Below are positions 169 to 13,164 of a DNA stretch of 50,941 nt, in pieces; the first letter of the stretch is position 1; every line of letters begins with the position of its first letter. The DNA is from Candidatus Gastranaerophilales bacterium (GTDB taxonomy: Bacteria; Bacillota; Clostridia; Lachnospirales; Lachnospiraceae). Position numbers and translations under genes: made by a program. The notes below the pieces were generated by a model. That model saw only the letters and a list, made by a program, of their open reading frames with translations, ran no database searches and was not told the origin of the DNA. The DNA lies in NCBI GenBank assembly GCA_023663225.1, contig JAMPHU010000019.1, positions 1 to 50,941 of the forward strand. Direction: 5' to 3'.

Positions 169-834
169 ATGATAAACGTGGATGTTACGACATGTGAGTT
201 TTTTGTGTCATATGTACAAGAATCAAGAAATATATTTGATATAATGGCGGTGGCATATAAAATAATTTATCCATTTGAGCCCAGAGTATTGACGGCGCAT
301 GATTCGGAACTTATAAATATTATAATGTGTTTTTCCGAACAGAGTAATCGGATTCGGGGACTTGCAGAAGTAAAACATAAATTAATTGAATGGTTTCGTA
401 AGTACGAGAACATTAATATTAGTGATATGAAAAAGAAACTGTTTTCTCTTGTCAGGCTAATAGATAACAAATGTGTGAAAGCAGCAGTATCTTCTCTCCC
501 TGATTCCTATATTCAATATTTTTCATTGAATCAGTTATTTCAAGATGAAATAATCATTGTGCCTCGTCCGAAAAGCGATGTAATGGAATTGTTGTCAGAT
601 ACTATGGCGAGGGTAGAAGGGCACGGTTTTTATGGTCGAAACTATTCTTCAACGGCTGATGTTTCCGGTTATTTGCATAATTTTATTATTTATCGGAAAA
701 GCTTGATCAAGCCCAGAATTAACATTAGCAATGACCATGATGAAATAAAGAAAGAATTTGAGCAAAAAAATCATAAGTTAAAAGTGGGTGTTTTCCCTTT
801 GTCAAACCGGAATTTGAAAACCACGATTTTATAA
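169..834 (+). pseudogene. 5' part of an IME-split gene: unknown N-terminal domain leading into a nitrilase-like domain
   Basis: Residues 1 to about 198 match no family I recognise. Residues near 205-216 (LKVGVFPLSNRNL) look like the first beta strand of a carbon-nitrogen hydrolase fold. After codon 814-816 the frame runs into the mobile element and stops at 834, so the last six residues are element-encoded. Joining 169-816 to 8146-9120 restores one open frame of 540 codons. ATG 169 touches the GGGGG run at 164-168; GTG 178, nine bases beyond that run, is the better-spaced start. The gene is AT-rich compared with the genes from 13 kb onward. The fragment lacks any catalytic residue, so it is probably non-functional unless the element excises. 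Confidence 0.75.
810..816. repeat. attL core of the IME (GAATTTG)
   Basis: This 7-bp copy ends the upstream host gene fragment (codons N-L of the nitrilase-like domain). The same seven bases occur at 8139-8145 in the same frame. The exact crossover point within the repeat cannot be resolved from the sequence. Confidence 0.8.
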
Positions 835-872
835 GTGGTTATTGCCCGTCATAGGGTTTCAATAAAATCCTC

Positions 873-985
873 CGAAATCCTTGAAAATAAAGGATTTATC
901 GCAATGTGTCCGCCTTATCCCTTTATACGGTTTCACACAAGTTTATACTTTCCTCAACTGCTCATAAGGGCAAATACAAGGGAAA
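873..985. repeat. Left-end integrase-arm-like repeats of the IME
   Basis: Two boxes are seen. Box A (873-897) has the core CCTTGAAAATAAAGG. Box B (961-985) has the core TAAGGGCAAATACAAGGG. Each has a close direct copy inside the right end (8089-8115 and 8037-8061), in mirrored order from the crossover core but in the same orientation. That is expected for arm-type sites of a tyrosine integrase with an N-terminal arm-binding domain. Nothing else was recognised in 835-1060. Confidence 0.6.
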
Positions 986-1071
986 GAAAATCTCATAACA
1001 AGATATAACAAAGTGTGGCAATCGGAGAACTGTGATATATGTGCGAATATATTATAACGGAGGATTTCAAA

Positions 1072-1449
1072 ATGAACAAGTACATTTATGATGAAAATAA
1101 CGGGCTTTGGTATGAACTGCAAGGCGATTACTATTTGCCCTGCCTTACCTTACCACCCGAAGAAGAAAAACCTATCGGGATATGGGGGCAGCGTCACAAA
1201 CGCTATCTGAGAGAACATAAGAAAGCGACCTACACCACGCTTTTAACCAGCGGCAAGCTCAACCTTTATCTTGCAGAGATTGACGAGCAGGCGCAGCAAC
1301 GCTTTGAAATGCTCATAGAGATGATGAAGCACTCACAGGGTATCACAGAACAGCTAAAGGCGGAAAATGCCTTAGAATGGACAGGACGAGTGAATAACAT
1401 ACGGTCTTGTGCAATGGAGATTGTGAATGAGGAAATCATCTACAACTAA
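1072..1449 (+). CDS. tnpV: TnpV-type transposon-encoded protein
   Basis: The product has 125 residues and shows the features I associate with TnpV of Tn4451-related elements in clostridia: an aromatic N-terminus (MNKYIYDENNGLWYELQGDY), the segment IGIWGQRHKRYL, and EQLKAENALEWTGRVNNIR toward the C-terminus. The start at 1072 follows GGAGGA at 1060-1065. An upstream in-frame ATG at 1039 has no ribosome site. The biochemical role of TnpV is not established to my knowledge; it usually marks mobile elements. A structured intergenic region follows it. Confidence 0.88.
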   Translation: MNKYIYDENNGLWYELQGDYYLPCLTLPPEEEKPIGIWGQRHKRYLREHKKATYTTLLTSGKLNLYLAEIDEQAQQRFEMLIEMMKHSQGITEQLKAENALEWTGRVNNIRSCAMEIVNEEIIYN

Positions 1450-1452
1450 ATC

Positions 1453-1568
1453 AATGTAACGCATATATATGTAAAATGGCGACGGGTAGGGATAACACCT
1501 TACCCGCCTTGTTTTATACCCCGTGAGTTGCTTGAATACGGTGTTTTGACACCGAAAAGCGTTACATT
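1453..1568. other. Structured intergenic region: 10-bp closing stem around two hairpins
   Basis: AATGTAACGC (1453-1462) pairs perfectly with GCGTTACATT (1559-1568). Inside are the near-perfect hairpin CGGGTAGGG...CCTTACCCG (about 1482-1506) and the perfect hairpin CGGTGT-TTTG-ACACCG (1539-1554). The first hairpin with the following TTGTTTTAT may act as the tnpV terminator. The whole could instead be a folded RNA or a small palindromic insertion. No promoter was assigned. Confidence 0.5.
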
Positions 1569-1667
1569 ATCATTTCTTTTTCAGAAAGTAAGATGTTCAT
1601 ATTTCTTTGCTTGATATAGTTCGTTTAAACGACTATAATATACACAGTACCATTTGAGAGATAAAAA

Positions 1668-1874
1668 ATGTTTGAATATATGACTGCACAGGAAACTGCC
1701 GAAAAATGGGATGTATCGCTTCGCTGGGTACAACGACTTTGCAAGACAGAACGCATTGACGGTGCTATGTATATAGGGCGAGTTTGGTTAATTCCTAAAA
1801 ATATGGAGAAGCCCGCTGATAGAAGAAAGAAATCGAATAACAACAAAAAAATTTCTGAAATCAACACAAAATGA
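1668..1874 (+). CDS. Small helix-turn-helix DNA-binding protein
   Basis: The product has 68 residues. MTAQETAEKWDVSLRWVQRLC is an excisionase/MerR-like helix-turn-helix, followed by a short wing (DGAMYIGRVWLIPKN) and a lysine-rich tail. It probably binds DNA in the element, either as an accessory recombination factor or as a small repressor. ATG 1668 has only a weak ribosome site (GAGAGAT); ATG 1680 is an alternative in the same frame. It is distinct from the excisionase-like gene at 5547-5762. The partner DNA site is not evident. Confidence 0.6.
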   Translation: MFEYMTAQETAEKWDVSLRWVQRLCKTERIDGAMYIGRVWLIPKNMEKPADRRKKSNNNKKISEINTK

Positions 1875-1960
1875 AATTCGTGTTGTTCAGTTTTAAGGGC
1901 AAATCCTTTATGATTGTATTATCAGCCAAGGCTGAAATACAATTTAAGGGAGAACCCACT

Positions 1961-2320
1961 ATGAATACAGACAAAATTTTTGCAGAAGCCATTGCCAAGG
2001 AATACGCACCGAATGATACTTCAAAGGTTGTGGCATTGAAAAAACTGGACAGAAAAGCAAAACGCAAAGCGAATATTTTCACTTACACTTTTGGTGTGGT
2101 TATGTCGCTTATTCTCGGCACAGGGATGTGTATATCAATGAAAGTAATCGGTGACGGAAGTCCATTTATGACTATCATTGGTATTATCGTTGGAATTATC
2201 GGAATTATCGGTGTCGGCGTAAACTATCCGATTTATAAAAGAATGCTCGAAACTGGTAAAAAGAAATACGCATTTGAGATTATGCAGCTTGCAAAAGAAA
2301 TCAGTGAAGAAGCTGAGTAG
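1961..2320 (+). CDS. Small two-helix membrane protein of unknown function
   Basis: The product has 119 residues starting MNTDKIFAEAIAKEYAPNDTSKV, after an AAGGGAGA ribosome site at 1946-1953. A basic segment (KLDRKAKRKAN) precedes two hydrophobic helices at about residues 46-66 and 72-95, the second rich in isoleucine and glycine. A charged C-terminal helix (KKYAFEIMQLAKEISEEAE) follows. Relatives in Lachnospiraceae are often labelled dihydropteridine reductase, a name I think is unsupported because no reductase motif is visible. It precedes the TetR gene by 20 bases and may be the gene that TetR regulates. An upstream in-frame ATG at 1871 is not supported by a ribosome site. Confidence 0.75.
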   Translation: MNTDKIFAEAIAKEYAPNDTSKVVALKKLDRKAKRKANIFTYTFGVVMSLILGTGMCISMKVIGDGSPFMTIIGIIVGIIGIIGVGVNYPIYKRMLETGKKKYAFEIMQLAKEISEEAE

Positions 2321-2340
2321 GAAAGTAAGGAGGGTGTCAT

Positions 2341-2952
2341 ATGAATAAGTCAGAAAGTAAATATTTCAATACTGCCCTCCTTATGGACGAAGCACTGATT
2401 GATTTGCTGGCAATAAAAGATTTAGAATATATTACAGTCAAGGAAATTTGTGAAAAAGCAGGCGTAAACAGGTCAACTTTCTATTTACATTATGAAACGA
2501 TTGCAGATTTGGCAAATGAAGCAATGGAAACTGTCAATGAACGCTTTTTATCTTATTTTACACAGAGTTCAGCGGAGTTTGCGGGTGAAATATCGGGAAA
2601 AGAACTGAACGACCTTGTTCTTGTTACACAAGACTATTTGCGACCGTATTTACAGTTTATATATGATAATAAAAAGGTATATCGTGCCACTTTCTGCAAT
2701 CCTTATGGTATGCAGGTACAAACACGATACCAATATTTGAAAGACCATATTATAGAGCCGATTTTGGCAAGATTTGACATTCCCGAAATCTTTCGTAACT
2801 ATTATATTGTCTATTATATAGATGGTGTTGCAGCTATCATTAAAGAATGGCTGAATACAGACTGTCGTGACTCCATTGACAGCATTATTGCAGTGATTGA
2901 GGAATGTGTCAGACCGTTAGGCGGAACAGAGGGCAAGAGATATGGAGAATAA
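2341..2952 (+). CDS. TetR/AcrR-family transcriptional regulator
   Basis: The product has 203 residues. The N-terminal DNA-binding domain (about 10-60) contains ITVKEICEKAGVNRSTFYLHY, a clear TetR helix-turn-helix. The remaining helical domain (about 75-195) should be the ligand-binding and dimer part and resembles the C-terminal domain of TetR proteins common in Firmicutes. The ribosome site AAGGAGG lies just upstream. The gene overlaps the next membrane-protein gene by 11 bases, so the two are translationally coupled. It probably represses its own unit in response to an unknown small molecule; no operator palindrome was firmly identified. Confidence 0.9.
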   Translation: MNKSESKYFNTALLMDEALIDLLAIKDLEYITVKEICEKAGVNRSTFYLHYETIADLANEAMETVNERFLSYFTQSSAEFAGEISGKELNDLVLVTQDYLRPYLQFIYDNKKVYRATFCNPYGMQVQTRYQYLKDHIIEPILARFDIPEIFRNYYIVYYIDGVAAIIKEWLNTDCRDSIDSIIAVIEECVRPLGGTEGKRYGE

Positions 2953-3649
2953 AACACCTCGTGAAATGATAAAACCTATTCTCCAAAATTGGAAAAGGGA
3001 TTATAGCTTTAAGACTATTGCCAGCTCGTTGCTTTCGTTTGGAATTACAATATTATTTGCCCTATATAACGGATTTTTAGGCATTCGCTTGTTGTCCGTA
3101 TGGAACGGAAGTATTTGTATATTTTATCTGTTGCTTGTTGTTATTCGTGGGAGTATCTTGTTCGCTGAAAGAAAGAGCAAAGGGAAACCCAACAGCGAAA
3201 AAGCACAAATTCGATATAGAGTGTTTGTTATCAGCACGATTATGCTTTTGTTACTTAACTTGGCACTTATTTGTCCCATTGCACTAATGGTAAAATTTGA
3301 AAAGCCCGTAAATATGGAGCTTATTCCCGCAATTGCAATGGCGGCTTATACCACTTATAAGGTTACGATGGCTTCTATTCATTTCCGTAAAAAAAGCAGA
3401 AGGCATAAAAATATTTTCATTACTGAGTTACGGACAATTAACTTTATTGATGCGCTGGTTTCAATTCTCACGCTTCAGAACACTCTGATAATGGTTAACA
3501 GCACAAAATCAGGTACTGACAAAATGCTCACATTATCTGCTATTACAAGTGCGGTAATTTATATAATTATTGTATTTATAACGCTTCGATTGATAACGGA
3601 AGGAATAAAGCAACATAGAAAAGAAATTGATAGTACCGACAAAGCATAG
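2942..3649 (+). CDS. Multi-pass membrane protein, unknown function (IME cargo)
   Basis: The product has 235 residues with about six hydrophobic segments: near 25-45, 50-70, 95-118, 125-145, a weaker one near 170-185, and 195-218. Basic loops (KSRRHK, RKSKGKP) lie between them. No transporter or enzyme motif is seen. It overlaps the TetR gene by 11 bases, so it is probably the regulated partner, for example an exporter or envelope-stress protein. The composition is AT-rich like the rest of the element cargo. I do not recognise the family. Confidence 0.75.
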   Translation: MENKTPREMIKPILQNWKRDYSFKTIASSLLSFGITILFALYNGFLGIRLLSVWNGSICIFYLLLVVIRGSILFAERKSKGKPNSEKAQIRYRVFVISTIMLLLLNLALICPIALMVKFEKPVNMELIPAIAMAAYTTYKVTMASIHFRKKSRRHKNIFITELRTINFIDALVSILTLQNTLIMVNSTKSGTDKMLTLSAITSAVIYIIIVFITLRLITEGIKQHRKEIDSTDKA

Positions 3650-3661
3650 AGGGATAACTGT

Positions 3662-3835
3662 ATGGATAAAACACAATGGATACTATGCCCCGTTTGCAGC
3701 AACAAAACTCGTGACAGGATGCGGGATGATACCATATTGAAAAACTATCCCCTTTACTGTCCGAAGTGCAAACAGGAAACGCTGATAGAAGCGGAGAACC
3801 TAAAAATAACCGTTATAAAGAAGCAAGAAACCTAA
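3662..3835 (+). CDS. Cysteine-rich KTR-type zinc-ribbon protein
   Basis: This short gene of 57 residues begins MDKTQWILCPVCSNKTRDRMR. It has two CxxC knuckles (CPVC near residue 9 and CPKC near residue 33) that should bind one zinc ion, and the NKTR segment typical of the small cysteine-rich KTR proteins common in Firmicutes integrative elements. A GAGGGATAA sequence lies shortly before the ATG. It ends just before a strong terminator that separates it from the convergent relaxase gene. The function is unknown; a nucleic-acid-binding role is likely from the fold. Confidence 0.85.
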   Translation: MDKTQWILCPVCSNKTRDRMRDDTILKNYPLYCPKCKQETLIEAENLKITVIKKQET

Positions 3836-3848
3836 TCTCTATATGTAT

Positions 3849-3886
3849 GCCGCCGATTATGGATAACACCATAGCGGCGGTTTTTT
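3849..3886 (+). terminator. Rho-independent terminator between convergent genes
   Basis: A stem of CCGCCG...TTATGG paired with CCATAG.CGGCGG is followed directly by TTTTTT (3881-3886). It ends the cargo transcript. It lies at the 3' end of the convergent relaxase gene and may also slow transcription from the other side. Confidence 0.8.
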
Positions 3887-3888
3887 GC

Positions 3889-5298
3889 CTATCGGCTGTC
3901 TCTGTCAAAGGATTTTTTGCGTGGTTTTTGCTGTCTGCCCTGCTCCTGCAACTGCCTGAGCCTGTTTCTAACACACTCTCTTTCGGGTTGCTTCTGCGGT
4001 CTGCGCTTTTCCTTAACCTGACGCTCCCATTCGGCAAGGTCACGGTTGTACTGCTCCACAACGGATTCTGCTTCCCGATAGGTTGCCATAAATGCCTGTA
4101 CATCGGGATAACCGTCCTCCCTGAGAATATCGGGGAGCTTATCCAGCCTTTCGGATATTTCCTTTTCGGTCTGCTGTACCTGCTCGGTAAGAGCCTTGCG
4201 CTCCTTGCCCTTAAAAATACCTTTTGCTTCGGAAAGCTGTTCTTTCAGTTTGGTGACTTCCTCCTGTAAGCTACGGATTGCCCTCGCTTCGTCCTGTACC
4301 CGTATCATCAGATTCCGCATAGTTCGGAACTCTGCCATATCAATACCCAGCGTGGGCTTCGGCGGCAACCCGTGTTCACGGATAAGTTTTTGCAGGAAGT
4401 CTTTTGCTCGGCTTACGATACTGCTGAACAGATTGGGCAGCCAGCCGCTTTTGCGGATAGAACTGCTTACCCTGTCGTGTACCTCGGTCTGCTTGACCTC
4501 CAAAATCCTTGCTTCGGATATTCCCGATATAAGTGCCATATCCGCCATCCTGTTCCATTCCTGTCTTGCCGCATTGTCGGCTTTGATTTCTTCCTCTCTC
4601 GGATTGTGCTTGCCGATTTTCTTTGTCGGCAGATACACGCTGTTTTTATCAAAGACCTTCAAATGCTGTTCGGGGTCGGAAATATGGCGGTTGATAAGGT
4701 CGGTATAAACTTCCTTTACCTCCCGAAGAAAAGGCTCGCTTTTGAATTTATCATCTTTCACGGTAAATAGGTGGCTTTCGTAAATCTCCCCCTTTTTGAT
4801 AATGGTGCAGCCCTTTCTTATCTGTCCGTCCTCTCCTGTGATTTCTTTCTTAGTGCGTATCCGTTTGCCTGTTTCGTCAAAGAATACGCTTCTTGCGGCA
4901 ATCTTCACATCAGGCTCAGGGAGCAGCTTCCTCTCGCTGAAAATCAGGTGAATGTGGTAATTGGTCTTGCGCTTGTTGTGGTGCAAAGCCGATACACATT
5001 CCACGCCGTACCGCCTGCGGAACTCGTCTGTGAAATCTTCGAGCACCTGCTGCGGCTCATACTGCGTGTAGACTTCGGGCAGGGCGATAATCAGCTCCCT
5101 TGCTTCGATACATTTCCCCTTTGCGCCGCTTCTCTGAAATTCCTGTTGGCTTTCCCTTGCGAGATTGCTCCAAAAGGTATTGTCTGCGGTGCGGTAGGTG
5201 GCGTATAGGTTTTCTTGTCTTGCGTGGCTGGTGATATACGATATTCGTCCTTTGACATTGGGCAGCTTCGACATCTGTATGAAGCTGTGTCTTGCCAT
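3889..5298 (-). CDS. MobA/MobL-like relaxase (MobP type)
   Basis: The product has 469 residues. It should nick the element's origin of transfer and stay covalently bound to the 5' end during mobilisation. The N-terminus has GRISYIT with a candidate nucleophilic tyrosine at residue 21. The metal-binding motif lies at about 104-118 (ALHHNKRKTNYHIHL), an H...NxHxH pattern typical of MobL/MobP relaxases. The C-terminal half (about 330-469) is rich in K, E, R and Q, probably a coiled coil used for contacts with other transfer proteins. A 248-base non-coding region with several inverted repeats lies immediately upstream and is the expected place for oriT. No coupling protein is encoded nearby. Confidence 0.93.
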   Translation of the reverse strand: MARHSFIQMSKLPNVKGRISYITSHARQENLYATYRTADNTFWSNLARESQQEFQRSGAKGKCIEARELIIALPEVYTQYEPQQVLEDFTDEFRRRYGVECVSALHHNKRKTNYHIHLIFSERKLLPEPDVKIAARSVFFDETGKRIRTKKEITGEDGQIRKGCTIIKKGEIYESHLFTVKDDKFKSEPFLREVKEVYTDLINRHISDPEQHLKVFDKNSVYLPTKKIGKHNPREEEIKADNAARQEWNRMADMALISGISEARILEVKQTEVHDRVSSSIRKSGWLPNLFSSIVSRAKDFLQKLIREHGLPPKPTLGIDMAEFRTMRNLMIRVQDEARAIRSLQEEVTKLKEQLSEAKGIFKGKERKALTEQVQQTEKEISERLDKLPDILREDGYPDVQAFMATYREAESVVEQYNRDLAEWERQVKEKRRPQKQPERECVRNRLRQLQEQGRQQKPRKKSFDRDSR

Positions 5299-5415
5299 AA
5301 TCCAACCTTTCTTTGAAATATACCGTTCTCATTTTGCAACCGTCTTGACGGTTGCTGCTGTTTCGGCGGCTGTGCTGACGAGACAGCGGAGAAAATCGCC
5401 ATAGCGGTTTTCTCT

Positions 5416-5518
5416 GTGATAATGCTGAAAACGGAAGTGTCAGCGTTATCACAAGCTCCCCGCAGGGGCGAAATACCCAGAGTACAAATCGAAGATTTGT
5501 GCGAGGGGTGTATTTCGC
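5416..5518. other. Candidate origin of transfer (oriT)
   Basis: Directly upstream of the relaxase start there are three nested or adjacent palindromes: GTGATAATGCTGA (5416-5428) with TCAGCGTTATCAC (5440-5452); CCCC-GCA-GGGG near 5458-5468; and the outer pair GCGAAATAC (5468-5476) with GTATTTCGC (5510-5518) around the perfect hairpin ACAAATC-GAA-GATTTGT (5484-5500). Such cruciforms next to a relaxase gene are typical of oriT. The nick site cannot be named from sequence alone. Parts may also act as operator for the relaxase promoter. Confidence 0.55.
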
Positions 5519-5546
5519 TCTCAAACGCCGAGGGCTTTAAGAACGG

Positions 5547-5762
5547 TCAATCTACTCGGCGGACATCATTCTGATTGAGAAGATTTCTGCCCTGATTGAC
5601 GCTCATAAAATGCTCCAGCGTGTCCCTGCGGATAATTGCTTTCCGTCCGACTTTAAGGACAGGCAGCTTGCCCCAGTCCACCAGTTTCCGCATTGTGTTC
5701 CTGCCGATACCCGTACATTCGGCAGCTTCTTCGATGGTTAAACCCATTTTGATGTTGCTCAT
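5547..5762 (-). CDS. Excisionase-like helix-turn-helix protein
   Basis: The product has 71 residues. LTIEEAAECTGIGRNTMRKLV is a winged helix-turn-helix of the excisionase/MerR type, and the wing (LPVLKVGRKAIIRRDTLEHFM) fits Tn916-type Xis proteins. It should bend DNA at the element ends and favour excision by the integrase. The ribosome site AAGGAG lies upstream of ATG 5762 on the minus strand. The gene diverges from the XRE regulator, with the shared intergenic region holding GTTGCAAA-type repeats. The assignment as excisionase is from fold and context; a regulator role is possible. Confidence 0.8.
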   Translation of the reverse strand: MSNIKMGLTIEEAAECTGIGRNTMRKLVDWGKLPVLKVGRKAIIRRDTLEHFMSVNQGRNLLNQNDVRRVD

Positions 5763-5891
5763 TTTATCATCTCCTTTCTAAAATACTCGTTTCGCAACTA
5801 TGTACCTGTAATTATACTTATTTTGCTATCACTTGTCAACCTGTTTTGCAACCATTCAAGAATTATTTTTAATATTTATCGCATTTTGGGG

Positions 5892-5920
5892 TTGCAATTT
5901 GCATTTCTATGTGCTATAAT
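5892..5920 (+). promoter_or_regulatory. Sigma-A promoter of the XRE regulator, with operator-like repeats
   Basis: TTGCAA (5892-5897), a 17-base spacer and a consensus TATAAT (5915-5920) are seen. The motif TTTTGCAAC/GTTGCAATT recurs near 5795-5800, 5842-5850 and 5891-5898 in both orientations, and probably forms operators for the divergent HTH and XRE proteins. Confidence 0.75.
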
Positions 5921-5944
5921 GATACTCGTCAGGAGGTGAAAACC

Positions 5945-6610
5945 TTGAAAAACGAAATTACATTCACTGCAAAACAGGTCGGTGAACGGGTAAAGGCACG
6001 CCGAACAGAGTTAAATCTTACCATGCCCGAACTTGGCAAGCGTATCGGCGTGAACAAATCCACCATTCAGCGGTATGAAGCAGACGGCGTTGACTCGAAA
6101 CGCACAATGATTATCAACGGTCTTGCCGAAGCACTGCTTACCACTCCCGAATGGCTGACAGGACTTTCCGAAGAAAAGGAATATGACAGCCGCACATTAT
6201 GTGCAAAGGATATGGAAGAACATATCAAAAAGTATCTTGATACGGTTTCCTCTACGGTCAGCGGAGAGCCGCACCAACAGCTTCTTACCACATTCCTCGG
6301 CAAGATGATTGACCTGTACTCGGTGCTGTGCCACTACTTTTCCGACGCTATGGCGGAGGTTGACCGTGTGGCGGGGGACGAGAGCTTGAAGCAGTCGCTT
6401 AGTAAATATGCGATTGAGTCAGGGGCAATTACCGAGCGTGTTTACCGCAAAGAGATGGAGTTACCTATCGAAGATATGAAGCGTTTTTTAGACGGAATTT
6501 TACATATCTACGATGAGGGACGCACCAAAATATCTATGGGCGACCTTTTCGGGATAGTGGCGGAAGCCGAAAACAGGCTTACCGAAAAAGAAAATTCCGT
6601 GGCACCTTGA
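5945..6610 (+). CDS. XRE/Cro-CI family transcriptional regulator
   Basis: The product has 221 residues when started at TTG 5945, which lies six bases after AGGAGGTG (5931-5938). The upstream ATG at 5909 overlaps the -10 box and cannot be on the transcript. The N-terminal helix-turn-helix (about 8-62) includes LTMPELGKRIGVNKSTIQRYE, typical of Cro/CI repressors. The remainder is helical and unrecognised. Placed between excisionase and integrase, it is a likely lysogeny-type switch controlling element excision. Confidence 0.88.
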   Translation: MKNEITFTAKQVGERVKARRTELNLTMPELGKRIGVNKSTIQRYEADGVDSKRTMIINGLAEALLTTPEWLTGLSEEKEYDSRTLCAKDMEEHIKKYLDTVSSTVSGEPHQQLLTTFLGKMIDLYSVLCHYFSDAMAEVDRVAGDESLKQSLSKYAIESGAITERVYRKEMELPIEDMKRFLDGILHIYDEGRTKISMGDLFGIVAEAENRLTEKENSVAP

Positions 6611-6611
6611 C

Positions 6612-6642
6612 AAAAAAATATGCCGATTGAACACAATCGGCA
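6612..6642 (-). terminator. Hairpin with U-run readable on the minus strand
   Basis: TGCCGATTG-AACA-CAATCGGCA is a perfect 9-bp stem at 6621-6642, with an A-run (6612-6618) on its left side. This makes a terminator only for minus-strand transcription. It lies between the XRE gene and integrase and could stop antisense transcription from the attachment site or limit integrase expression. Confidence 0.35.
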
Positions 6643-6717
6643 CAAGTGACACTATTTACTTTACGCACACCATATGTCACAGTCCCGATTGCCACGGATA
6701 GAAAGGAGTTTTTATCT

Positions 6718-8016
6718 ATGGCAAAAGGTTCTGTAAGAAAGAAAGGAAAAAAGTGGTACGGACGCTTCTATATCGAGGATGAAAGCGGTCGCAAAGTCCA
6801 AAAGGAGTTTGTAGGCACAGAGAGCAAAGCCGAGACGGAAGCCATGCTCCGCAAGGCGATGGAGGACTATGAGGAAAAGAAATTCGTAGCAAAATCCGAA
6901 AATGCCACGGTGGGTATGCTGCTGGATATGTGGGTGGAGGAAGAATTAAAGCCCGGCAATCTCAGCAACGGAACGGTAATGGCATATCAGGGAACAGTCA
7001 ACCGTATCAAACAGCATCCTATCGGCAGCCGCAAGCTGAAAACCGTTACCGCCGACCATTTGCAGGCGTATATGGACTATCTCAGCTTTGGCGGAACAAA
7101 TCCAGACGGCACGACAGCAAAGGCACTCAGCAAAGGGTACTTACGACTGTTCTCGGCAGTTCTGCAAGGGGCGTTCCGCTTTGCAGTATTCCCGAAGCGG
7201 ATGATTACCTTCAACCCGATGCAGTATGTGGTATGGCGGGGCAAGAAAGAGGACTATGACCTGTTCTCGGACGAGGACGGCGACACCGTTTCCGCTCCTA
7301 CCCTCAGCCACGAGCAGTATTGCAGGCTGAAGGATTTTCTGAAAGCAAAGGGCAATCCCGCATTGCTTCCCATTCAGATTGCCTACTACACGGGGCTTCG
7401 CATTGGCGAGGTCTGCGGCTTGACTTGGCAGGACATTAACCTTGACGAGCAGTACCTCACGGTACGCCGCAGTATGCGATACAACGGGGCAAGGCACAAA
7501 ACCGAGATAGGAGCGACTAAGCGGAAGAAAGTCCGCACCGTTGACTTCTGCGACACGCTGGCGGAAATTCTGCGGACAGCGAAAACCGAACAGCACAAAA
7601 ATCGCTTCCGATACGGCGAGCTTTACAACCTCAACTATTACAAAGAGGTCAGGGAAAAAGACCGCACCTACTATGAGGTTTACAGTCTGCCGAGAACGGA
7701 AGAAATCCCCGATGGCTGCAAGGAAATCTCCTTTGTCTGCCTCAGACCTGATGGTGCATACGAATCACCGAGTACGGTAGGGATTATGTGCAGGACGGCA
7801 AGCAGAAAAGTCGAGGGATTGGAGGGCTTTCATTTCCACCAGCTTCGCCACACATTCACGAGCAATCTGCTCTCAAACGGAGCAGCACCGAAGGATGTGC
7901 AGGAGCTTCTCGGACACGCCGATGTCAGTACCACAATGAACATTTACGCTCACGCTACAAGGGAAGCGAAGCGTACTTCCGCAAGGCTGCTGGATAAAGT
8001 AGTCGGCGGAAATTAA
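6718..8016 (+). CDS. Tyrosine-family site-specific integrase of the IME
   Basis: The product has 432 residues from ATG 6718, preceded by GAAAGGAG; the longer frame from 6646 lacks a ribosome site. The N-terminus ([20 protein letters not shown]) is a Tn916-like arm-binding domain, followed by a SAM-like core-binding domain. The catalytic domain shows R228 in [10 protein letters not shown]374 and R377 in FHQLRHTF, a downstream LLGHAD histidine, and the nucleophile Y410 in NIYAHAT. All expected catalytic residues are present, so the protein should be active. The gene sits at the right end of the element with its stop 129 bases from the attR core. Confidence 0.96.
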
Positions 8017-8021
8017 AAAAC

Positions 8022-8115
8022 TTTCCCTTGTTTCGGCTCGTAAGGGCAAAAACAAGGGAAAATACATAAGGCTGGAACACAAAACAGGCGAAATGCCTTG
8101 AAAATACAAGGTATT
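8022..8115. repeat. Right-end integrase-arm-like repeats and hairpin
   Basis: Box B' (8037-8061) matches left box B at 23 of 25 positions, and box A' (8089-8115) matches left box A with small differences. Box B' is also the right half of a perfect 12-bp hairpin, TTTCCCTTGTTT (8022-8033) with AAACAAGGGAAA (8050-8061), starting just after the integrase stop. The hairpin is preceded by an A-run, so on the minus strand it would look like a terminator; on the plus strand no U-run follows. Confidence 0.6.
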
Positions 8116-8138
8116 CAGAGGATTAAATAGATAAATCT

Positions 8139-8145
8139 GAATTTG
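8139..8145. repeat. attR core of the IME (GAATTTG)
   Basis: This is the second 7-bp copy. The codons AAT TTG at 8140-8145 are in phase with the downstream nitrilase-like sequence, and the stop TAG at 8128-8130 lies just inside the element. Precise recombination between the two copies would regenerate the intact gene. Confidence 0.8.
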
Positions 8146-9120
8146 GGGAGCCTGTTTTCCATTAAAGAAGATATTGTGGACAGGGAAGGGGTATTTCGTA
8201 TTGAAGATTCCGATGCCGCTCAGGAAAAGAGGCTTCTTGAACGATGTATGGAAGCCTTAAAGATCTGTAAAAAGCAAAAGGTAGATATAGCTGTGTTTCC
8301 GGAAATGCTTTTTTCAAAGAAAATGCAGAAAGCGATCATTGATTATGTGAGAGAAAATGAGGAGGCTGAGAACAGATTTCCTTGGTTTACATGGCTTGGA
8401 ACAGCATGGGCTGAAAGAGAAAACAAATGTATGGTAATTGATCAGTATGGTAAAGTTGTATTTGAACAGAAAAAATTTGTCCCCTATGAATATAAGAGAA
8501 AAAGTCTGCAGAACATTGGAGAAAAAGCTTCAAATAGGAAAGAACTGCAGGGTTGTGTACCAGAAGGAAGAGAAGGGGAAGAGATTTTGACAATCAGGGA
8601 GGATCTGTCGCATGAAGAGGACTGGATTGTCAATTATCTTGATATTCCTTTCGTGTTCAGGATTGCAACTGCCATTTGTCGTGATATTTCTAATGACATA
8701 TTAAAAGATTCAGTCAAACAGTTCTACACAGATATGATGATTATTCCCGCTTTTTCTCAATCCGATCGTTTAACGCACAGGAATATTGATGCTTTGGCGC
8801 TGGAACGTATTATGGTTGTTGTGTGTAATGCCTGTTCTGCGTTGTGCGGAAATACTCAGGAGAAATTCGAAGTGACAAAAGAAATGTTAGGGAAAACGCA
8901 TCCATTTTGTTATTTATGTATGCCGGCAAAGCAGTCGCAGGATAATCAAGCGGATTATCATCGAGTTGAATATACGAAAGACTGCTTAAACTGTGAGAGC
9001 TATTGTAATGGATATCTTTGGGAGATATCGTTTTCAGAATGTATTAAAGAAAATGACAGTTATTTTGCTCTAATAGCTGATTCAAATTGTGCTTCACTGT
9101 GGGATTGGCGGTCTACATAG
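8143..9120 (+). pseudogene. 3' part of the IME-split gene: nitrilase-like carbon-nitrogen hydrolase domain
   Basis: The frame holds 325 residues from the TTG at 8143. The nitrilase triad is visible: E54 in VFPEML, K111 in EQKKFVPY and C179 in ATAICRDI. The domain lacks its first beta strand, which is encoded at the left end of the element (LKVGVFPLSN before 816). Nitrilase-superfamily enzymes cleave or form non-peptide C-N bonds in nitriles, amides and carbamoyl compounds; the substrate here is unknown. In the joined 540-residue protein the triad would be about E269, K326 and C394. The TTG has no good ribosome site, so the fragment may be poorly expressed from element sequences. Confidence 0.8.
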
Positions 9121-9219: not shown

Positions 9220-10491
9220 ATGCGCAAGGAGATCGTGCTGGGAGAAAGATTGGTGGAAAAAGAGAGCATATCGTTTATAGAGGCAATGCTTTCCGAAAAT
9301 TTGAGTGATGCTATGGAGCTTGAGAACCGTTGGAAATATAAGTTTGATGCGGTTTTCACTAGTCTTGCAGATGCAGTAGTTCACTTTTTTACTTCGCGAG
9401 TGAAGAATGAAGAGATTGCACAGGCGCAGTCACGGATACGGAGAATCTTTCGAAAGACGGAATATATTGATGAAATCAAACATGATAATACTCTTCAAAA
9501 AGTTTTTTTACTGGGGTACTGTCATGGAGTTGATAAAATAATGGATTCTTTTGAAGCGGAGATTTCTCATCAACAGAACGATTCGTTAAATGCGGCTGTA
9601 TCTAGTTATAAATATGTGGAACCGTCTCTGCGGATTTTAGAGCGTGTCGTAGAAATCAGTCATAAGGAATTGGCACAACAATTGAATATCAGTGGGTCTG
9701 CTTTGTCAAATTTTATGAGCAAGGTGCAGGAGTATCATCTTTTTAACACTGTGCGGGTGGGCAAAAATAAATATTATTCTTTGGCATATCCAAATGGAGA
9801 AGAAGCTCTAAAAATTATAAAAGATAATGGTAATCTTTCAGCAAATAGTTACACAGATTTTTTGCTGCTTATGATGGATTCTTTGATAAAAATAAGTACA
9901 TGCGATGACCTGGATCAGGATTATGTGTTGAAAAACTGTGAGACAATGATTCGGCAGTATACTACAAGACCCAATTTATGTATTAAGAAATTAGCAGAGT
10001 TGGCCCTTATTTCAAAATCGATGAGAGTGTATCGTAATGATTTGAGGATTTTTGAAAGCAATGTAACAAGCAATGTCACGGTTTTTACCAAGGATATTAC
10101 AAGTGAGCAATCTTTTGGGGATGTTATTGTTGCAAATTTGGAAAAAAAGATTAAATATCGGTGGTTTATTACGGAAACGGATGAATTTGACTCAGAGGAT
10201 AAAGTGCAGAATTACTTTGCCAAACATTTTTTGAAGTGTAATGAGCGAAAGAATACGGAAGAGTTCATGTGTAATGTATGTTGCTATATTATTCCAAAAG
10301 AGAGAACAGATTCTTTGTTTGATGACATTTTTGATGCAGTAATCTATGATGGAAATGCGGGATTTAGTTGTAAAGATGATACTATATCTGCAGTAACGCC
10401 CTATTTTGAAATGCAACATAATATTCTTGAAAAATTTAATCAGTATGCGGCAGAGCAGGGTAGATATTTCAATACCTATGCGACAAGGTGA
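9220..10491 (+). CDS. Winged-helix protein of unknown function
   Basis: The product has 423 residues after GGAGAAGAGG. A winged helix-turn-helix is recognisable at about 134-190: RILERVVEISHKELAQQLNIS, then ALSNFMSKVQEYHLFNTVRVG and the wing KNKYYSLAYP. The N-terminal 130 residues are helical. The C-terminal 230 residues are of unknown fold, with scattered cysteines and acidic segments and no catalytic motif that I recognise. It lies between the nitrilase-type gene and the radical SAM gene, all on the plus strand, suggesting a shared unit. It could be a regulator that senses a ligand through its C-terminal part. The family is not recognised. Confidence 0.7.
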   Translation: MRKEIVLGERLVEKESISFIEAMLSENLSDAMELENRWKYKFDAVFTSLADAVVHFFTSRVKNEEIAQAQSRIRRIFRKTEYIDEIKHDNTLQKVFLLGYCHGVDKIMDSFEAEISHQQNDSLNAAVSSYKYVEPSLRILERVVEISHKELAQQLNISGSALSNFMSKVQEYHLFNTVRVGKNKYYSLAYPNGEEALKIIKDNGNLSANSYTDFLLLMMDSLIKISTCDDLDQDYVLKNCETMIRQYTTRPNLCIKKLAELALISKSMRVYRNDLRIFESNVTSNVTVFTKDITSEQSFGDVIVANLEKKIKYRWFITETDEFDSEDKVQNYFAKHFLKCNERKNTEEFMCNVCCYIIPKERTDSLFDDIFDAVIYDGNAGFSCKDDTISAVTPYFEMQHNILEKFNQYAAEQGRYFNTYATR

Positions 10492-10554
10492 AGGTTGAAG
10501 CTTGGTTTTATAAGACATTTTCAGAAAGAAATTTGTCTGGTTTGGAGGATCATT

Positions 10555-11640
10555 TTGAGTCATAGTAAAAAAGAAATGATATCGTTCTATCTTACAACCA
10601 GGTGCAACTTGGATTGTATCTATTGTTATACGAATAAAAATTCTGATACTCATGCACACCAAACGCTGGATTTTGAATTTGCCAAAGCGGGAATTGACGA
10701 TTATTATGAAACGGGATTTGCGCGTCATGTGCGTTTTTTTGGTGCAGGGGAACCCACTGTTGAAGTGGGGTTGATGAAGAAAATCCTGAATTATGCCAAA
10801 GAAAAAGATTTCAATACCACATCTGAACTTCAAACAAATGGATGTTTTGACGAAAATACCAGATTGTGGCTTGCGGATCATATTGATATTATATGGATTT
10901 CCAGCGACGGTTTGCCGAGCGTGCAGGATCATTATAGGCCGTTGGCAGGCGGGGGAAAATCTTCCGGCATTTTAGAAGAAAATATAAGATATTTGGTTCA
11001 AAATGCAAGAGGGATGACTGGCATCAGAATGACTATTACGAATCATAATGTTTGCAATCAGATTGACATGATAAAATATTTTGCGGGTTTGGGAATCAGA
11101 AATTTTTGGGTGGACCCTATTTTTGCGGGGATTGGAAACGAGCGTCCTTATGAAAGCTTGGATATGGAATTATTTACCAAGGAGTTTATTCAGGCGGTTA
11201 GATATGCATATCAAAATGGAATAACTTATGGAAGTATCTTGACATGCAATTTTGACGAACCTGGTGAATATGCGTGCAGGGCTTGTCTGCCGGTTCCGCA
11301 CCTGACTACGGATGGGTATGTTTCTGCATGCGATATGGCTCTTTTTGGAAATGACGCAGATCATATGAATGTTTTTATTTATGGAAAGTGGAACCGCAAG
11401 ACCGGAAAAATCCAATACTTTCAAGATAAGATTAGGGTACTCCAATCCAGAAAACTTTCGCAAATGCCTCATTGCAGAGATTGTAGTGCTGGTGCATATT
11501 GTAGAGGGTATTGCTTGGGAGAGGTAGTGAATGAAACAAAAGATTTGTTTGGTTGCAAGCGTCAGATTTGTGGGCCTACAAGAATATTGCTTAAGGAGCT
11601 TTCAGCGGAAGAAAAAAGATACAAATATTCTCATCCCTAA
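10555..11640 (+). CDS. Radical SAM/SPASM domain protein
   Basis: The product has 361 residues when started at TTG 10555, six bases after GGAGG (10544-10548); the open frame upstream to 10495 has no ribosome site. CNLDCIYC at residues 17-24 is the CxxxCxxC site for the radical SAM 4Fe-4S cluster, and FFGAGEPT is the GGEP-type SAM-binding motif. C-terminal cysteines (CRACLP, SACDM, CRDCSAGAYCRGYC, CKRQICGP) form a SPASM region for auxiliary clusters. Relatives include peptide-modifying maturases and anaerobic sulfatase-maturating enzymes. No precursor peptide or sulfatase is recognised nearby, so the substrate is unknown. It closes the nitrilase / winged-helix / radical SAM cluster. Confidence 0.9.
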   Translation: MSHSKKEMISFYLTTRCNLDCIYCYTNKNSDTHAHQTLDFEFAKAGIDDYYETGFARHVRFFGAGEPTVEVGLMKKILNYAKEKDFNTTSELQTNGCFDENTRLWLADHIDIIWISSDGLPSVQDHYRPLAGGGKSSGILEENIRYLVQNARGMTGIRMTITNHNVCNQIDMIKYFAGLGIRNFWVDPIFAGIGNERPYESLDMELFTKEFIQAVRYAYQNGITYGSILTCNFDEPGEYACRACLPVPHLTTDGYVSACDMALFGNDADHMNVFIYGKWNRKTGKIQYFQDKIRVLQSRKLSQMPHCRDCSAGAYCRGYCLGEVVNETKDLFGCKRQICGPTRILLKELSAEEKRYKYSHP

Positions 11641-11641
11641 T

Positions 11642-11683
11642 GTCTTGACATGCGATTTTGACGAACCTGGCGAATATGCATGC
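11642..11683 (+). pseudogene. Remnant of a second radical SAM/SPASM gene
   Basis: The segment from CTTGACATGC to GAATATGCATGC is nearly identical to 11238-11277 inside the intact radical SAM gene and encodes LTCDFDEPGEYAC against LTCNFDEPGEYAC. It starts right after the stop of the intact gene, and similarity ends abruptly at both sides. The few differences are mostly synonymous-type, so it comes from a paralogue or diverged tandem copy, not from a recent slip. Only about 42 bases remain. The following 70 bases up to the flagellin stop hold nothing that I recognise. Confidence 0.65.
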
Positions 11684-11757
11684 TATATAAACTGCACTCT
11701 GTCTGGTACAGTTAATAGGGACGACCCGAGTAGACAGCGCCTCCAGTTACCGGCTCC

Positions 11758-13164
11758 TCAACTAAACAGGCTGAGCGTGTTCTGTTGGTTCTGGTTGGCC
11801 TGCGCCAGGACGGACTCCCCGGCCTGCTCCAAAATGTTTAGAAGGGACTGTTTTACGATCTCCTTCGCCATATCAGTATCTCGGATTCTGGATTCTGAGG
11901 CGGTGAGATTTTCGATCACATTATTCTCATTGTTGATAGTGCGCTCCAGGCGGTTTTGATGGGCGCCGATGTTGGACCTTTGTCTGTTGATACTCTCCAT
12001 GGCTTCCTTCGCCCTGTCGATGGCGTCAAAACATTCTTCCACCGAAGTAACCCGCAGGCCGTTCAGCCCCAGGGTCTTTTCGTTCATTTGCTCAATGTAC
12101 AGATTCAAGTTGTCCTTGGCGTCCGCGCCGTACTGGATGGACAGTATGTTGGTGACGATTTGATCCTGTGCGCTGGCAACGCCCGCGAAATCGGCTTGAC
12201 CGTATTTGTCGGATTTTCTGTATCGTTCAATTTGCGTTAGTGCATATTCCTTAGTATAGTTATTATGAGCTGACGAGGAACGAAGGACTAAGGAAGTGTC
12301 GCTGGTTTTGACCAAAATATTGGAGTGGCTTACGAGTAGGCCTTTTATGTCAGTTTTTTGATTTGTGCGGGCAGGATTCTTTTCCACAAAATCATATAAA
12401 GCGTTCAGCAGTTGAGCGCCGTTTTCGATTCCAAAGATATCGATTTGATATTTGTGGGGAACGGCTTTATTTCGGGTTTCGGGATTCAAAAAAGCGCTTC
12501 TTGTGCCATCGCCTCTTACAAAAGTAAATGTAAAAGCCTCGTCGCATGCCAGACTGCAGGTAAAGGAAAAAGATCTTCCGTTCAATCTTCCCACCAAGGC
12601 TGAGTTGGTGAGAGCGCTGAAATCCATGGAAGCGGAAGCATAATACTTTCCGTCCTCCTCGTATATTTCTGAGAGATATCCGCAAGCGGCGGAAGGGGAC
12701 TGGATCAGACTGCGATCGACGTTCTCCTTCCTTTTCACACCGTTGGCAAAATCAAAAATATGTATGTCATTGAAGGTGGTGGTGAAGCCGATCCTGGAAA
12801 TCTCTGTGGTGAGCGCGGATACTTCATCCTGCACCGCGCGTCTGTCGGATTGGGACATGGTGCCGTTGGCGGCTTTGATGCTCAATTCGGTGATGCGGTT
12901 TAACATATCATGCACTTCCGCGAGAGCGGCATCTGCCACCTGGCAGAGAGAGACGCCGTCCTGGGTATTGCGGACGCCAGAAGTAAGACCTCTGATCTGC
13001 TTGCGCATCTTTTCGGAAATGGATAATCCTGCGGCGTCGTCGGCCGCTCTGTTGATCTTGAAGCCCGAGGATAATTTTTCGATTGCTTTTGCGTTCTGTC
13101 TATGGTTAATGTTTAATTGCCGGTTTGCGTTCATGGCCAGTGGGTTGTTAGTAATCGTGTTCAT
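11758..13164 (-). CDS. fliC: Flagellin
   Basis: The product has 468 residues and is the filament subunit exported by the flagellar type III apparatus. The conserved N-terminal D0/D1 region (about 1-145) contains HRQNAKAIEKLSSGFKI, ADDAAGLSISEKMR and QDGVSL. The C-terminal D1/D0 region (about 365-468) contains RVTSVEECFDAIDRAKEAM, RSNIGAHQNRLE and AGESVLAQANQ. The central part (about 150-340) is variable and surface-exposed. The start follows GGAGG. A near-consensus sigma-D promoter lies upstream. No other flagellar structural gene is in the window, so this is an isolated flagellin locus, larger than the roughly 270-residue flagellins of many Firmicutes. Confidence 0.95.
   Translation of the reverse strand: MNTITNNPLAMNANRQLNINHRQNAKAIEKLSSGFKINRAADDAAGLSISEKMRKQIRGLTSGVRNTQDGVSLCQVADAALAEVHDMLNRITELSIKAANGTMSQSDRRAVQDEVSALTTEISRIGFTTTFNDIHIFDFANGVKRKENVDRSLIQSPSAACGYLSEIYEEDGKYYASASMDFSALTNSALVGRLNGRSFSFTCSLACDEAFTFTFVRGDGTRSAFLNPETRNKAVPHKYQIDIFGIENGAQLLNALYDFVEKNPARTNQKTDIKGLLVSHSNILVKTSDTSLVLRSSSAHNNYTKEYALTQIERYRKSDKYGQADFAGVASAQDQIVTNILSIQYGADAKDNLNLYIEQMNEKTLGLNGLRVTSVEECFDAIDRAKEAMESINRQRSNIGAHQNRLERTINNENNVIENLTASESRIRDTDMAKEIVKQSLLNILEQAGESVLAQANQNQQNTLSLFS

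Follow-up and report, generated by a model that had tools for sequence, protein, structure and literature searches.

The window examined here, i.e. the whole analysed stretch of 50,941 nucleotides from Candidatus Gastranaerophilales bacterium (assembly GCA_023663225.1, placed within Lachnospiraceae in GTDB), is one entire contig (JAMPHU010000019.1) of a 3.29-Mb draft genome distributed among 111 contigs. Near its start an integrative mobilizable element (IME) of 7.3 kb, occupying 811-8135, interrupts one reading frame, which appears from comparison of three loci to be the first gene of a rare operon coding for nitrilase-like, winged-helix and radical SAM proteins. It is highly probable that this interruption represents an incidental, potentially reversible inactivation of the gene by an IME of an ordinary kind, because the flanks of related insertions are unrelated to each other, seven of nine insertions are situated outside long frames, and neither empty site nor circle is found in the draft assembly.

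One gene in two parts

Joining of 169-809 with 8139-9120 gives a single open frame of 540 aa. In the present state the left part of the host gene is read 24 bases into the element up to the stop at 834, yielding 221 aa, and the frame of the right part is open up to 9120. The scan of one genome per species with six peptide patterns, which reaches close relatives only, resulted in 32 matches, two of them coding for relatives of the interrupted gene. One of these loci, in an uncultured Eubacterium metagenome-assembled genome (MAG; locus L003), carries an uninterrupted open reading frame (ORF) at 4275-5903, which spans both halves, comprises 542 aa if started from GTG or 534 aa from ATG at 4299, and is 81 and 78% identical to the left and right pieces, respectively. 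This ORF is strong evidence that the two pieces derive from one split gene, so the proposal of an earlier sequence-only reading that a mobilizable element divides a single gene is borne out by both the 540-codon join and L003, the latter being found by the very search of related genomes for a whole gene that this reading had recommended.

The second relative, from a Lachnospiraceae MAG (L004), has its gene divided between two frames that overlap (9360-10016, 10010-10894), with 52 and 57% identity to the pieces from the window. Within 9360-10894 of this locus the change of frame falls near the equivalent of the window insertion point and may reflect mutation, assembly error or frameshifting. 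A programmed frameshift is not claimed here: the slippery-type heptamer T TTA AAT occurs there in frame, yet fold prediction gave no stimulating structure (z = +1.38).

The same reading emphasized that the flanks join exactly in frame at a shared 7-mer. The join in frame over 540 codons was reproduced, though there is nothing special in it, because conservative recombination keeps target length at any site; a striking in-frame junction may therefore arise from this process alone. As to the 7-mer, copies of GAATTTG are located at 810-816 and 8139-8145 with a distance of 7329 bp from copy to copy, and because a third one is present at 754 (the first 9.2 kb were scanned), the match by itself is weak evidence for the interrupted gene. 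Its role as a shared or duplicated crossover site had to be abandoned, since recombination involves a coupling of 4 bases, which is unlike at the two ends in all nine elements compared below. The coincidence is explained by resemblance between the target preference and the element end, together with the fact that both couplings of the window end in G.

Element termini, couplings and target

Comparison of both ends of related elements makes it possible to separate element DNA, coupling and target. Fourteen related regions were fetched through a match to the integrase end, and eight of them plus the window provided nine elements readable at both ends; L038, L043, L045, L046, L047 and L048 had no readable pair of ends and were left out. 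In nine of nine the left junction has the form AAA-N4-AATTTGAA and the right one TAAA-N4-AATT. This form was in part demanded by the anchor expression, but raw junctions show it without that demand. Because it is common to the nine elements, and AATT also occupies the target position in 12 of 15 right ends carrying TAG[AT]TAAA (the motif required by the search), the left AATTTG is to be read as the element's own terminus and the right AATT(TG) as the target, with no target duplication. In its mode, integration appears to be Tn916-like, with 4-base couplings and an AAA-N4-AATT target.

No similarity between different elements was found for the 18 flanks of the nine insertions (blastn, E 1e-3). 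Among 397 genomes of the family, 62, with the own one counted, have a match to the segment 7600-8145, many of the matches covering the integrase coding sequence only; in the same genome another integrase-end stretch with 74% identity was noticed (G000:C30:39077-39275). The search with the element gave no match among plasmids and four unannotated fecal "Bacteriophage sp." records among phages, at best with 82% identity over 23% of the element, and the exact 30-base right-end pattern occurred nowhere in viral contigs.

With unequal couplings on the left and right, the original codon does not necessarily return on excision. Either coupling may stay behind, and both keep the 540-codon frame, with Leu or Arg in position 214. 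The equivalent codon is ATA (Ile) in L003 and TTA (Leu) in L004, for which reason the right, Leu-coding coupling probably represents the original target bases, and the left CCGG probably arrived with the element from its former site. Of the two products that excision could give, the joined protein considered in the sequence-only reading is just one, and it probably differs from the ancestral protein; its suggestion that excision could restore the gene stands with respect to the frame, but the original codon is not assured, and reversibility keeps the status of a prediction.

In the excerpt of PMC12084037 dealing with Tn916, the variable left-end coupling is described as derived from the donor and the integration sites as numerous and AT-rich, 124 of the top 303 sites lying in ORFs and 75% of insertions being intergenic. 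To the extent of this excerpt, the element of the window shares with Tn916 a tyrosine integrase accompanied by a Tn916-Xis-like excisionase and, together with its relatives, many A/T-rich targets, unequal short couplings and the presence of some insertions in ORFs. Unlike Tn916, the element is 7.3 kb long, encodes a MobA/MobL relaxase and has no transfer apparatus seen within it; its target core is AAA-N4-AATT, whereas the same excerpt gives a T-rich stretch separated from an A-rich one by six bases, and sequence comparison does not clearly place its integrase in the Tn916 subfamily. Because the target motif differs, we say that the element works like Tn916 and not that it belongs to the Tn916 family. 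As far as the excerpt of PMC5704250 describes IMEs of Firmicutes, including those of Tn4451 type, they are likewise small, possess their own integrase, a relaxase and a TnpV-family gene and need a helper, but Tn4451 uses a serine recombinase in place of the tyrosine integrase. The element itself belongs to a kind already known and common in gut bacteria.

Incidental insertion or regulated switch

We propose that the IME inserted by chance at an AAA-N4-AATT target in the leading gene of an accessory operon that is rare, and cut this gene behind the first segment of the nitrilase-like domain, which would have left an N-terminal fragment of 221 aa together with a C-terminal one. Integrase and Xis could excise the element as a circle, so that the empty site would retain, in frame, a single coupling of 4 bases that codes for Leu (probably the original) or for Arg, and the relaxase would allow transfer of the circle by a conjugative helper. 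Such a helper is conceivable because one VirD4-type coupling protein is encoded elsewhere in the same genome. The surroundings of related insertions agree with a chance event: for seven of nine there is no frame that exceeds 45 open codons on the left and right alike, and only the window and L039 represent insertions into long frames, the latter with one frame open over 529 and 84 codons. In L044 (41 and 197 codons) and L035 (45 and 214 codons) the element may lie near a gene start. The L039 element (G538:C32, junctions near 9633 and 16229, reversed orientation) is a related one located inside a long surface-protein-like frame.

Several points weigh against this interpretation. Six of the 14 fetched regions gave no readable pair of ends, and one of them, L038, situated near a contig end, has the conserved right end without the left motif; the choice of the nine elements depended on likeness to the integrase end of the window and, in part, on the anchor expression. 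In sequence terms XerA (5hxy, 1.1e-11) and "Int protein" of 6emy (1e-11), the latter taken by us to be Tn1549 Int, are equally near to the integrase, and the target motif is unlike that of Tn916, in which 6 bp separate a T-rich from an A-rich stretch. Finally, neither empty site nor circle junction was found in the own genome, an absence that is weak in a draft assembly.

The idea that the insertion operates as a regulated on/off switch, i.e. that the element excises under set conditions, restores the gene and then re-inserts or persists as a circle, draws on the presence of Int, Xis and an XRE-type regulator, on in-frame restoration with either coupling, and on known prophage switches interrupting genes, such as phiSa3mw (PMC6597384, in the part dealing with this prophage), where an integrated element likewise splits a host gene and excision would restore it. 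Prophage switches, however, as presented in that part of PMC6597384, have a fixed site in one gene, while relatives of the window element occupy unrelated places and regulated excision would be hypothetical. A switch should be accompanied by a conserved gene site, but the nine insertions have unrelated flanks; a loose target would not favour re-insertion at the same position; in a search of 146 genomes from relatives (E 1e-10) none of the 145 others proved to have the gene; neither L003 nor L004, the two other gene loci, carries this insertion, nor does any second genome searched; and no excised form is seen in the draft assembly. We consequently regard such a switch, as suggested in the sequence-only reading, as very improbable. 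Slightly less credible still is its extended version, a working switch of an undescribed nitrilase-like/winged-helix/radical SAM system, in which rounds of insertion and excision rewrite codon 214 and generate off, on-Leu and on-Arg alleles. If excision were regulated, prophages with a fixed site would be joined by IMEs of loose target choice as gene-restoring switches, and a codon change would come along as a side effect.

Fixed loss of the gene, with an inactive element or a decaying operon and a permanent pseudogene as the outcome, is unlikely as well, though it deserves to be kept in mind: the L004 gene is broken close to the same place, because of which the first operon gene may be dispensable, and no excision product is present in the draft assembly, but the frames of integrase, Xis and relaxase are all intact, and so are both downstream genes, which are 78% identical to those of L003. 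We give almost no credence to an assembly chimera with the left flank wrongly joined to the element, even though the contig starts just 168 bp ahead of the gene, as both flanks match one contiguous L003 ORF with order and frame kept, and both junctions share the form of eight other elements.

Product of the interrupted gene

The designation of the product as a nitrilase in the sequence-only reading is retained here in the softer form "nitrilase-like", which is justified by distant similarity. Neither of the two pieces nor the L003 protein had a Pfam match above chance in direct searches (best for the latter is an unrelated family, 0.041), and CN_hydrolase in particular was matched by neither the window half nor L003; phmmer found no PDB match for either of these, no NCBIfam family matched the interrupted gene, and PADLOC was negative for the L003 protein. 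CN_hydrolase appears, below cut-off, in four of five distant two-domain relatives, of which L051, L053, L058 and L062 are similar in size and L059 is shorter. The residues E269, K326, E368 and C394 are invariant in six of six rows of alignment A5 and in seven of seven rows of alignment A4, and we take them to be the catalytic Glu/Lys/Glu/Cys set of nitrilases. Comparison with the true CN_hydrolase L061 by hhalign scored 95.6% over 85 columns and 96.4% over 167 columns, the E-values being pairwise. The PDB profile match obtained with A4 (4.4e-9) was set aside, since A4 includes L061; for A5, which is free of it, the best PDB profile match is 0.0079 across about 30 positions. The AlphaFold model of the L003 protein (mean predicted local distance difference test score, pLDDT, 35.9; predicted template modelling score, pTM, 0.25) is too poor to be used for the fold. 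The further suggestion that joining regains the first beta strand of the nitrilase fold is plausible by MAFFT alignment, but the stretch lies outside the hhalign alignments and the AlphaFold model is uninformative.

A nitrilase domain is used in phage defence by DRT1, as told in the excerpt of PMC13275509. To the extent of this source, the likeness is that in both cases an accessory system of bacteria has a domain of nitrilase type joined to a further domain, which is a lead only and not evidence; unlike DRT1, the system of the window has no reverse transcriptase.

The surroundings of the distant relatives were also inspected. In L058 (1548-3924, G351:C15) a second ORF, some 310 aa long and with only a weak helix-turn-helix (HTH) match (Rrf2, 0.034), comes directly after the two-domain nitrilase-like one; the pair resembles the first two genes of the window, the second ORF having no match to the winged-helix protein of the window. 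In L051 and L053 the corresponding genes adjoin an ORF looking, by eye, like NUDIX type.

Gene content of the element

Based on its genes (Table 1), the element appears to be an IME, having its own integrase and excisionase and a relaxase without full transfer apparatus: among its 10 ORFs scanned against Pfam a relaxase was present and no transfer-apparatus protein was found. The tyrosine integrase, excisionase-like protein and XRE regulator recognized in the sequence-only reading were all matched by Pfam. A promoter-like site with perfect consensus faces the Xis/relaxase side (5839-5811); promoter-like sites overall number 52 versus 28.7 in shuffles.

Table 1. Positions and assignment of features in the left part of the window.
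Feature	Position	Strand	Remarks
Host gene, 5' part	169..810	+	N-terminal domain of ~200 aa and segment KLKVGVFPLSN
Target half-site AAA, left of element	804..806	+	AAA in 9/9 elements
Left coupling CCGG	807..810	+	codon 214 = CGG, Arg
IME without couplings	811..8135	+	conserved ends AATTTGAA... and ...TAGATAAA in relatives
TnpV-family protein	1039..1449	+	Pfam TnpV 8.7e-46
Cargo stretch	1668..3835	+	~1443-3670 unaligned in most relatives
Cargo: HTH_17 protein	1668-1874	+	
Cargo: hypothetical protein	1871-2320	+	
Cargo: TetR-type regulator	2341-2952	+	
Cargo: membrane-type protein	2942-3649	+	
Cargo: Cys-rich KTR protein	3662-3835	+	
MobA/MobL relaxase	3889..5298	-	Pfam MobA_MobL 5.9e-12; NCBIfam MobQ 1.9e-8, below its cut-off
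Excisionase-like protein	5547..5762	-	Pfam Tn916-Xis 5.6e-8; TIGR01764 1.5e-12
XRE-type regulator	5909..6610	+	Pfam HTH_3 4.8e-7
Tyrosine integrase	6718..8016	+	432 aa from ATG (listed ORF begins with GTG at 6646); Pfam Phage_integrase 2e-28
Perfect 12-bp inverted repeat	8022-8033 / 8050-8061		downstream of integrase
Right coupling TCTG	8136..8139	+	codon 214 would be CTG, Leu
Host gene, 3' part	8140..9120	+	nitrilase-like catalytic part minus first segment
Winged-helix-type protein, next operon gene	9220..10491	+	intact; aligns with L003 and L004; weak HTH matches only
Radical SAM protein, third operon gene	10495..11640	+	intact; Cys-rich C-terminal part; Pfam Radical_SAM 1.2e-9

Host operon

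The same two genes, for a winged-helix-type and a radical SAM protein, follow the nitrilase-like gene in all three loci. Distribution of the operon seems to be narrow: the alignment of the C-terminal part of the nitrilase-like protein matched eight of 392 genomes of the order (E 1e-5), including the own genome, the other seven matches being distant, and with the winged-helix alignment the own genome alone was matched among 391 genomes of the class. Neither of the two alignments had a confirmed match in viral contigs, and the L003 protein had none among plasmids and phages by tblastn. PADLOC assigned the winged-helix protein to Csa3/CARF only weakly and returned viperin-type radical SAM matches (5e-12) for the third gene; its identification as viperin was rejected, since the NCBIfam viperin family gave 40.6 bits against a cut-off of 180. 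The PapB family of NCBIfam is matched at 5.6e-23, with 81.7 bits against a cut-off of 340. A literature search for a nitrilase / radical SAM / winged-helix operon found no fitting description. The family libraries used contain no clear counterpart of the operon, which is of modest interest and may merit study.

Two further observations concern the neighbourhood of the operon. In the window, the ORF right behind the radical SAM gene (11531-11959) resembles that gene over a short part of its length (phmmer, 2.4e-5), as if a fragment had been duplicated, and upstream of the operon in L004 a big ORF (2072-7036) looks by eye like a nonribosomal peptide synthetase.

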